Shown: piece by piece, positions 31,761 to 34,154 of the stretch
How positions within the stretch are numbered: the stretch's first letter is position 1
Layout of the letters: each line of letters opens with the position of its first letter
Assembly (NCBI GenBank): GCA_029862005.1
Contig: JAOTYD010000005.1
Coordinates: 62,001 to 126,000 of the forward strand
Direction of reading: 5' to 3'
DNA: 64,000 bases
Source of the DNA: Gammaproteobacteria bacterium
GTDB taxonomy: Bacteria; Pseudomonadota; Gammaproteobacteria; GCA-001735895
Notes under the pieces: model-generated
What the model saw: the letters and a program-made list of their open reading frames with translations, nothing else
Told to the model about the DNA's origin: nothing
Database searches by the model: none
Translations under genes and position numbers: made by a program

Positions 31761-32330
31761 TTGGCTACCCCGGATCAAAAATATGTCCCGATCATCGACT
31801 TCATTCTGAATCTGTTTGCCCAGCGTGGCGCACAGGAGTACATGGGTGAGGCCGTCACGATGTCACAACACATGGAACAAAGCGCGGCCTGTGCAGTCGC
31901 CGATGATGCCCCGGACAGTCTCGTCGTCGCCGCACTGCTGCACGACATCGGACACTTTATCGGCGAACATCCGATAGAGGCCCTGGAAAACGGCATCGAC
32001 AACAATCACGAGGAAGCCGGGGCAGACTATCTCAAGCCCTACTTCCCCCCGTCGGTGACAGAGCCCATACGTTTGCACGTGCCCGCCAAGCGCTATCTAT
32101 GTGCAACCGATGCCGGGTACCTCGGTCAGCTTTCGGACGCCTCTGTCAATTCGCTCAAGGTCCAGGGTGGCCCGATGAGTCCTGCAGAGATTGAAACCTT
32201 TGAAGCCAATCCCTTCCACAAGGACGCGGTTCAGCTTCGACTGTACGATGACGATGGCAAGGTTGCCGGCCTGGAGATCAAGCCGGTGACCGAGTATCGC
32301 ACGAGGCTCGAGTCGCTGTTATCAGGTTGA
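31761..32330 (+). CDS. tmpB: PhnZ/TmpB-type HD-domain phosphonate oxygenase
   Basis: This 189-aa protein belongs to the mixed-valent di-iron HD oxygenases that split the C-P bond of 1-hydroxyphosphonates. All ligands known for PhnZ can be matched: Tyr27, His37, His61-Asp62 (LLHDIGHF), His83, His106 and Asp155, with Glu30 of the YMGE motif at the substrate-binding position. With the following TmpA-like oxygenase the best-fitting role is TmpB, which turns 1-hydroxy-2-(trimethylamino)ethylphosphonate into glycine betaine and phosphate. The start is TTG at 31761 with GGAG 7 bp upstream; the nearby ATG at 31748 is out of frame. The gene symbol is by analogy. Confidence 0.8.
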   Translation: MATPDQKYVPIIDFILNLFAQRGAQEYMGEAVTMSQHMEQSAACAVADDAPDSLVVAALLHDIGHFIGEHPIEALENGIDNNHEEAGADYLKPYFPPSVTEPIRLHVPAKRYLCATDAGYLGQLSDASVNSLKVQGGPMSPAEIETFEANPFHKDAVQLRLYDDDGKVAGLEIKPVTEYRTRLESLLSG

Positions 32331-32331
32331 A

Positions 32332-33459
32332 ATGAACCAGATCGAGTTATTTTCCTACAATGCCGACGAACTGACGATCGTCTGGGAGGATACCAGCGAG
32401 AGCCAGTTGCAGGCAATCTGGCTACGCGACCACTGTCAGATGCCAGATAGCCTCAATCCGGACAATGGCCAGCGCCTGCTGAATATAACCGATATACCGT
32501 GGGACCTTAAGATAGAGACGGTGACGCTGGAGGACAGGCATTTAATCGTGCATTTCGCGCCCGACGGTCACTGCTCGGAGTTCGACCTCGACTGGCTGTA
32601 CGACAATTGTTACTGCCTGAATCGACAGAGTGATGATCGCAGCGAAGTGGGCAAAATTCTCTGGTCGGGTACATCATTCGAGCAGGGTTTACCGCGCTAC
32701 TCCTTCGCCAACTTTTGCGAACAGCCCAAAAGCAGGCTCGCGGCACTGCAGATCGTCCGGGACTACGGGTTCGTGCTGCTTGACGGGGTGCCCTGCGAAC
32801 CGGGCCAGCTGCTCAAGGTCATCGAACAGTTCGGCTACGTACGCGAGACCAATTACGGCCCTTATTTCGAGGTACGCACCAGGGTTGATCCTAGCAACCT
32901 TGCCTATACCAACCTGGGGCTCGGCTGCCATCTCGACAATCCCTACCGCGACCCGGTACCGGGCTTACAGTTACTGCACTGCCTCGAGTCTTCAACCGAG
33001 GGTGGCGAATCAATCCTCCAGGATGGTTTCATGGCGGCGAAAATTCTGCGTGAAGAGGACTCGGCTCATTTTGGCTTACTGAGTCAACACTGGGTCAGCT
33101 TTCGTTTTCGCGACAGTACTGCAGATCTGCAGGCCAGGGGACCGCTGATCGAGGTTAACGACCTCGACGAGGTCATCAAAGTGCGTTTTAACAACCGTTC
33201 GATCGATACCCTTCGGCTACCGCCTGCGGTCATGCGGCCGTTCTACCCGGCCTACCGTCACTTCGCCGAAATTCTCGAACGCGGGGAGCAACAAATTGTG
33301 TTCAAGCTTCAACCCGGTGAACTGATCCTGTTCGACAACACGCGTATCCTGCACGCACGCACAGCCTATTCAGCCGGTGGAACCCGGCATTTGCAGGGTG
33401 CCTACAGCGACCTCGATGGTCTCTATAGCAGCTTGCGCAAGCTCAAAGCAATTGCATGA
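32332..33459 (+). CDS. tmpA: TmpA/gamma-butyrobetaine hydroxylase-type 2-oxoglutarate oxygenase
   Basis: The 375-aa protein has the N-terminal DUF971-like domain and C-terminal TauD/GBBH fold. Iron ligands are His200, Asp202 (LGCHLDNPYRD) and His341 (RILHARTAY), with Arg352 for 2-oxoglutarate. GBBH relatives hydroxylate gamma-butyrobetaine; TmpA hydroxylates 2-trimethylaminoethylphosphonate. Coupling by 1 bp to the PhnZ/TmpB-type gene favours TmpA. Oddity: the N-terminal zinc site, CxCxxC in GBBH, reads HCQMPDS, so two of three cysteines are gone although the His (FAPDGH) remains. Substrate is inferred, not shown. Confidence 0.8.
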   Translation: MNQIELFSYNADELTIVWEDTSESQLQAIWLRDHCQMPDSLNPDNGQRLLNITDIPWDLKIETVTLEDRHLIVHFAPDGHCSEFDLDWLYDNCYCLNRQSDDRSEVGKILWSGTSFEQGLPRYSFANFCEQPKSRLAALQIVRDYGFVLLDGVPCEPGQLLKVIEQFGYVRETNYGPYFEVRTRVDPSNLAYTNLGLGCHLDNPYRDPVPGLQLLHCLESSTEGGESILQDGFMAAKILREEDSAHFGLLSQHWVSFRFRDSTADLQARGPLIEVNDLDEVIKVRFNNRSIDTLRLPPAVMRPFYPAYRHFAEILERGEQQIVFKLQPGELILFDNTRILHARTAYSAGGTRHLQGAYSDLDGLYSSLRKLKAIA

Positions 33460-34154
33460 AATACCGTGGGATTGTCTTCGACAAGGACGGTACGCTGCTC
33501 GATTTCAACCGGACCTGGCTCCCGGTTTATCGTTTCGCCGCCCGGGAATTCGCCGCAGGTGACGCTGTCCTCGAAGACCTGTTACTCACGCAACATGGCT
33601 TTCAACCTGAGCGCAATGGTTTCGTCGGCGGCAGCCTGCTGGCGGCGGGTAATAATCGACAGATTGCTGGCGCCTGGGCCGATCAGATCAATAAACCCGA
33701 CCAGGTGGAACATATCAGCTCCCGGCTGCACGAAATCTTTCATCACCAGGGAGCACTGCATGCGACCCCCGTTAAACATCTTGCCAACACGCTGCGGGAA
33801 TTAAAGCAATCCGGCAAAAAACTCGGCGTGGCCACTGCCGATAGCCACCAGGGCATTATCAATACGCTGAAATCCTTCGACGTACTGCACGAATTCGACT
33901 TTCTCGCCGGCTACGACAGCGGTCACGGCGTCAAGCCCGAGGCGGGCATGGTGGTTAGTTTTTGCGAGCAACTTGCGCTTGATGTCGAAACCGTCGTGGT
34001 TGTCGGCGACAATCTCCACGATATCGAGATGGGCAGAAACGCGAACGTCGGTCTTTGCATCGGCGTACTCACGGGCACCAGTACGCGTGACGAGCTTGAG
34101 TCCATCGCCGATATCGTTCTCGACGACATCAGCGCGCTACCGGACGCGATCTAG
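33456..34154 (+). CDS. HAD-family hydrolase, third gene of the phosphonate cassette
   Basis: The 232-aa HAD phosphatase has all four motifs: FDKDGTLLDF (nucleophile D9, acid/base D11), GVATADSHQG, the Lys in GVKPEAGM and VVVVGDNLHDIEMG. It resembles Gph-type phosphatases with a helical cap of about 80 residues. Its ATG overlaps the TmpA-like gene's TGA by 4 bp, so it is made together with the oxygenases. It could remove a phosphate from a by-product or act as a C-P hydrolase like PhnX, though the PhnX Schiff-base Lys is not evident. Its end overlaps the convergent sulfurtransferase by 4 bp. Confidence 0.8.
   Translation: MKYRGIVFDKDGTLLDFNRTWLPVYRFAAREFAAGDAVLEDLLLTQHGFQPERNGFVGGSLLAAGNNRQIAGAWADQINKPDQVEHISSRLHEIFHHQGALHATPVKHLANTLRELKQSGKKLGVATADSHQGIINTLKSFDVLHEFDFLAGYDSGHGVKPEAGMVVSFCEQLALDVETVVVVGDNLHDIEMGRNANVGLCIGVLTGTSTRDELESIADIVLDDISALPDAI

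Follow-up and report, generated by a model that had tools for sequence, protein, structure and literature searches.

Three adjacent genes in the window, i.e. the whole stretch of 64,000 nucleotides analysed here, encode an HD-domain oxygenase, a TmpA-type oxygenase and a HAD phosphatase (Table 1). As judged from its sequence, the cassette very probably converts a trimethylated phosphonate to glycine betaine and phosphate. We further propose that the three genes constitute a translationally coupled operon that would obtain phosphate and methylated amine from quaternary-amine phosphorus compounds, an explanation that, taken as a whole and with the HAD step included, we consider to have about an even chance of being right. 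The same gene order recurs in 15 genomes of the genus, the window's own among them, and the cassette is more than a chance arrangement.

Table 1. Features of the cassette and of related oxygenase genes in the window genome
Feature	Position	Strand	Size	Description
HD gene	31761..32330	+	189 aa	HD-domain diiron oxygenase, TmpB/PhnZ-like; TTG start
TmpA-type gene	32332..33459	+	375 aa	2-oxoglutarate/Fe(II) oxygenase
HAD gene	33456..34154	+	232 aa	HAD-superfamily phosphatase, helical cap inserted after motif I
HD stop codon (32328-32330) to TmpA start (32332)	32328..32332	+	1-bp gap	Seen in the sequence
TmpA stop / HAD start	33456..33459	+	4-bp overlap	ATGA, seen in the sequence
Further oxygenase, window genome (G000)	C10:5636-6718			TmpA/GBBH class
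Further oxygenase, window genome (G000)	C1:118190-119260			TmpA/GBBH class
Further oxygenase, window genome (G000)	C42:3988-5058			TmpA/GBBH class

The coordinates, strand, gap and overlap given in the initial annotation of this DNA are all exact, and its assignment of the three protein families is borne out by profile and structure matches. The ATGA overlap between the TmpA-type and HAD genes is also present in other members of the genus. As had been remarked before, the cassette stands without a transporter at its side, and none of the adjoining genes could be recognised as encoding a phosphonate transporter or regulator. No import route was found, and the window's own genome lacks choX. A scan for promoters and terminators returned fewer sites than in shuffled sequence.

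The second gene product scores 436.5 bits against the NCBIfam TmpA model NF049936 (cut-off 400), and it also narrowly passes the gamma-butyrobetaine dioxygenase/hydroxylase model TIGR02409 (420.4 against 414.75). Its nearest solved structure is TmpA (PDB 6npb), and the 14 residues compared, drawn from the aromatic cage, the phosphonate contacts and the iron ligands, all agree with that structure. These positions include the cage residues Y175, F179, Y192 and Y358, the iron ligands H200, D202 and H341, and the pocket residues N189, N288 and R289; the latter three are invariant within the genus and correspond to the phosphonate contacts N187, N287 and R288 of TmpA (PMC9296572). BBOX1 has Ala where the window oxygenase has R289 and TmpA its phosphonate-binding Arg, and the window protein does not show the BBOX-type pocket without the extra Arg that would be expected of a gamma-butyrobetaine hydroxylase. 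In a tree of 77 sequences (quick search, SH-aLRT support only), the oxygenases of the genus form one clade (SH-aLRT 99), whose sister group is canonical TmpA with 6npb among its members (99). Both groups jointly make up a 54-row clade with 95% SH-aLRT, and BBOX1 and bacterial GBBH-like proteins fall outside it. The clustering with true gamma-butyrobetaine hydroxylases that would have spoken against a TmpA-type enzyme was not seen, and the residues and the tree rule out a gamma-butyrobetaine hydroxylase. Three further oxygenases of the TmpA/GBBH class occur in the window genome, with 244-308 bits to the TmpA model; the copy on C10 (L199) lacks the TmpA pocket residues.

The HD protein finds its best NCBIfam match in TmpB (NF049941) with 218.7 bits, below the cut-off of 300, which is reached by no HD protein among the genus members; therefore, we name it TmpB-like and not a member of the TmpB family. 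It likewise misses the Phn-HD model TIGR03276 (203.7 bits, cut-off 214.6), and the PhnZ1 model ranks after these. Among solved structures TmpB (PDB 6npa) comes first and PhnZ (4mlm) second, and the HD proteins of the genus form a clade sister to canonical TmpB (quick tree search, SH-aLRT only). The iron set of PhnZ/TmpB is complete and conserved, although one residue of the set first proposed has to be replaced: Tyr27, His37, His61, Asp62, His83 and His106 were named correctly, whereas the last ligand is Asp163 and not Asp155. Residue 155 is freely variable, being D, Q, S, L, A or N, while Asp163 is invariant and aligned with the last PhnZ/TmpB ligand. Tyr27 belongs to a conserved Y27xxE30 loop, as described for this type of HD oxygenase (PMC8177086). 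The HD protein of the Olavius algarvensis Gamma 3 symbiont (L088:5392-5961) has His for the Tyr of this loop. Another genus relative, G002, carries a second HD protein of the PhnZ/TmpB type (C39:7905-8444, 111.6 bits), distant from the cassette.

Taken together, the TmpA cut-off, the tree, the pocket residues and the HD ligands support the earlier proposal of an oxidative phosphonate pair of the TmpA/TmpB type. TmpA and TmpB convert 2-trimethylaminoethylphosphonate (TMAEP) to hydroxy-TMAEP and then to glycine betaine and phosphate (PMC10574752). By strong analogy with the two families, the TmpA-type enzyme would hydroxylate 2-trimethylaminoethylphosphonate at C1, and the HD diiron oxygenase would cleave the C-P bond to yield glycine betaine and phosphate. 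Since the HD protein lies below the TmpB cut-off and both oxygenases stand in clades sister to the canonical ones, the substrate could differ, and the pair might act not on the trimethyl compound but on 2-aminoethylphosphonate with two, one or no methyl groups. The replacement of Tyr by Phe at cage position 192 in some genus members is compatible with such a shift. However, the window oxygenase retains the whole TmpA cage and the phosphonate contacts, and TmpA is described as highly substrate-specific (PMC10574752); we regard a change of substrate as quite unlikely.

The distribution of the three genes bears on the role of the HAD protein. The HD, TmpA-type and HAD genes are contiguous in 15 of the 18 TmpA-bearing genomes of the genus, the window included; two of the other three loci (L082 and L085) are cut by contig ends, and in G011 HD-TmpA and HAD lie on separate contigs. 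The HAD gene thus does co-occur in other genomes, and the objection that such co-occurrence might be absent fails in its plain form. HD and HAD also occur without TmpA in G013, G021, G017, G019 and the Olavius algarvensis Gamma 3 symbiont; in the symbiont they are adjacent, and its genome yielded no TmpA. G004 has kept HAD with its HD gene reduced to a C-terminal remnant, and G008 has HAD with both HD and TmpA missing. In the TmpA-less genus members HAD is under purifying selection (dN/dS about 0.08-0.13). A reading of their HD genes as plain pseudogenes is not supported where this is measurable, G004 excepted (dN/dS 0.08-0.18, with synonymous sites near saturation). Within the genus, HAD is thus nearly a core gene, whereas the member that varies is TmpA. 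None of 32 genomes, the window's own among them, yielded the C-P lyase protein PhnJ in a search that detected the E. coli positive control. Near the HAD gene, MttB-like and DMGDH-like genes were observed in G017 and G008; in G017 (L074:5954-12703) an MttB-like methyltransferase, a DMGDH/GcvT-like FAD oxidoreductase, an unassigned 441-aa protein, HD and HAD run on one strand without TmpA.

Outside the genus, HAD accompanies TmpA at only 2 of 34 loci, which are 0 of the 14 canonical loci of other classes and 2 of the 20 in the Granulosicoccaceae family. TmpA precedes HD in all 14 alphaproteobacterial-type TmpA-TmpB loci and in those Granulosicoccaceae-family loci that have an HD gene, an order that is reversed in the window genus. 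The two Granulosicoccaceae-family genomes with HAD show the order HAD-TmpA-HD, and their HADs belong to a different clade than those of the genus; this other order and other clade imply that the HAD-TmpA pairing probably arose twice. Various neighbours were seen at the TmpA loci outside the genus. An enolase-superfamily (MR_MLE) gene directly follows TmpB at two canonical loci (L210:4184-6009, with a 4-bp overlap, and L212:4080-6010) and possibly encodes an accessory enzyme such as a racemase. A divergent LysR regulator adjoins TmpA at L205:4925-5812 and L207:7339-8226, and an ABC-transporter ATPase gene lies downstream of TmpA-TmpB at L200:3210-4463; the window cassette has neither.

The initial annotation had supposed that the HAD might clear a side product or widen the range of phosphonates. 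The 4-bp overlap across much of the genus and the two apparently independent pairings would suit a HAD dedicated to TmpA/TmpB, removing phosphate from an inhibitor or a side product of their pathway. Nevertheless, 32 of the 34 other TmpA loci lack HAD, purifying selection acts on it in genomes without TmpA or HD, and the choline operons that bear it (see below) carry neither gene. We find this role decidedly unlikely, and neither part of the supposition is supported. On the distribution of the HAD, we also reject the view that it catalyses an invariable third step after TmpA and TmpB.

The HAD protein matches Pfam HAD_2 and has the HAD catalytic motifs, with D9, D11, K160, D185 and D189 invariant in 146 homologues. 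Its AlphaFold model (pLDDT 96.3) is a standard capped HAD, and the fold neighbours are generic HAD phosphatases, so that the fold indicates no substrate; the sequence likewise names none. The NCBIfam search reached no equivalog cut-off, the nearest curated models being PpaX and phosphoglycolate phosphatase, all far below their cut-offs. Weak similarity to PhnX and PhnX-like models might suggest a phosphonatase that cleaves a phosphonoacetaldehyde-type intermediate. However, the score against PhnX (TIGR01422) is 39.6 bits with a cut-off of 220, and there is no Lys between residues 11 and 79, leaving the Schiff-base Lys53 of PhnX without a counterpart. The missing cap lysine excludes the PhnX mechanism, and we give a PhnX-type enzyme practically no credence.

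More was learned from the relatives of the HAD gene. A scan of named genomes found matches mostly in Alphaproteobacteria, and an order-wide sample of Kiloniellales contained HAD in 48 of 61 genomes. There, choXWV, betI, betB, betA or bmt lie within about 5 kb of HAD at 35 of the 40 loci fetched, whereas none of 16 comparably long control stretches taken from these genomes has such a gene. The controls are few, and the 35 loci do not stand for 35 independent events and may go back to few ancestral linkages. Several of the choline/betaine neighbours at the sampled loci score above NCBIfam equivalog cut-offs, and the choline operons in question contain no TmpA or HD gene. In Rhodospirillales and Kiloniellales, HAD follows choX-choW-choV or is divergent from betA, near betI, betB and betaine-homocysteine methyltransferase. 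Where it ends the choline-import operon choXWV, the ChoV-HAD gaps are mostly -11 to 51 bp. In the HAD tree (quick search, SH-aLRT only), the window-genus clade is sister to three HADs of choXWV operons with 90% SH-aLRT, a placement that would fit HAD having come from a choline operon of Alphaproteobacteria. The position directly after choV that is typical of most Kiloniellales relatives is not found in the window, where the neighbour is TmpA, and the kinship is one by tree only. We found no report in open-licence papers of this HAD beside TmpA or in choXWV operons.

Orthologues in other contexts were also observed: in Rhizobium, HAD lies between waaA (KDO transferase) and lpxK in a lipid A context (L096:4568-7873 and similar), and in Mesorhizobium it is beside pgi. 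Neither context has a choline gene, so the ancestral HAD activity may be general. The HAD could accordingly be a house-cleaning phosphatase, of the kind that acts on phosphoglycolate or sugar phosphates, and do no more than share the transcript, with HD and TmpA alone forming the phosphonate pathway. The distant PpaX and phosphoglycolate phosphatase matches, the generic folds and the retention of HAD without TmpA would all agree with this. It is more difficult to reconcile with the choline/betaine linkage and its absence from the controls, or with the separate linkages of HAD to tmpAB, betA and MttB/DMGDH-like genes. We judge it a serious alternative, though an unlikely one.

We favor the reading that the HAD belongs to choline and betaine metabolism. 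Based on gene context, and with moderate confidence, it would be a cytoplasmic phosphatase from a lineage tied to choline import and betaine metabolism. Its substrate may be a quaternary-amine phosphate ester, with phosphocholine as the likeliest candidate, which it would hydrolyse to choline and phosphate. BetA scores above its cut-off in 18 of 32 genomes, including the window's own, and its presence in most members of the genus provides a route from released choline to betaine; BetA would feed choline from the HAD reaction into the betaine pool that the phosphonate also supplies. The HAD would thus be a parallel entry to the pathway and not a step in it. While the association with choline genes is observed directly, a quaternary-amine phosphate ester, perhaps phosphocholine, is the substrate that we infer from it. 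Since choline selectivity has been reported for ChoX (PMC10132767), a cytoplasmic source of phosphocholine is unaccounted for, which counts against phosphocholine. As a tentative extension, which we think somewhat less probable than not, the HAD may found a new family of cytoplasmic phosphatases specific for phosphocholine or similar quaternary-amine esters, widespread in alphaproteobacterial choline operons and twice recruited beside TmpA/TmpB.

If true, HAD and TmpA/TmpB would be one unit mining both the ester and the phosphonate forms. The analysis extends the TmpA/TmpB pathway by a divergent, rearranged branch in a clade of Gammaproteobacteria to which the Olavius algarvensis Gamma 3 symbiont belongs and in which no C-P lyase was found. 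In addition, it draws attention to an uncharacterised HAD encoded behind choline importers in tens of genomes of Alphaproteobacteria. Growth on phosphocholine by a Pho-independent, unidentified route is reported for a marine bacterium without PhoX or PhoB (PMC10132767), and the HAD is a testable candidate, and nothing beyond that, for such use of phosphocholine by marine bacteria. Its kinship with choline-uptake operons hints at a general strategy for obtaining phosphate from molecules that resemble choline.

Among known systems, PchP, the phosphorylcholine phosphatase of Pseudomonas aeruginosa, and PHOSPHO1 share the HAD superfamily with the window protein. Cells produce PchP when they grow on choline, betaine or dimethylglycine, and the protein is exported, with 349 aa (327 mature) and the motif DMDNT (PMC3170909); it is longer than the window HAD, which would be cytoplasmic. 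The PhnY*/PhnZ pathway for 2-aminoethylphosphonate (4mlm) resembles the cassette in its two-step chemistry and in the PhnZ iron ligands, all of which are conserved, whereas the partner oxygenase in the window is of the TmpA/BBOX class and the HD protein is, by score, nearer to TmpB than it is to PhnZ. TmpA/TmpB of Leisingera caerulea (6npb, 6npa) agree in both enzyme families, the pocket residues, the diiron ligands, the YxxE loop and the adjacent, co-directional genes. In contrast to that operon of two genes (PMC10574752), the window has proteins in sister clades with roughly 40-50% identity, the HD gene first and an extra HAD. Finally, the choXWV operons of Kiloniellales share an orthologous trailing HAD with 40-54% identity, in some cases from the sister clade; there it follows the choline transport genes, whereas in the window it follows the TmpB-TmpA pair.
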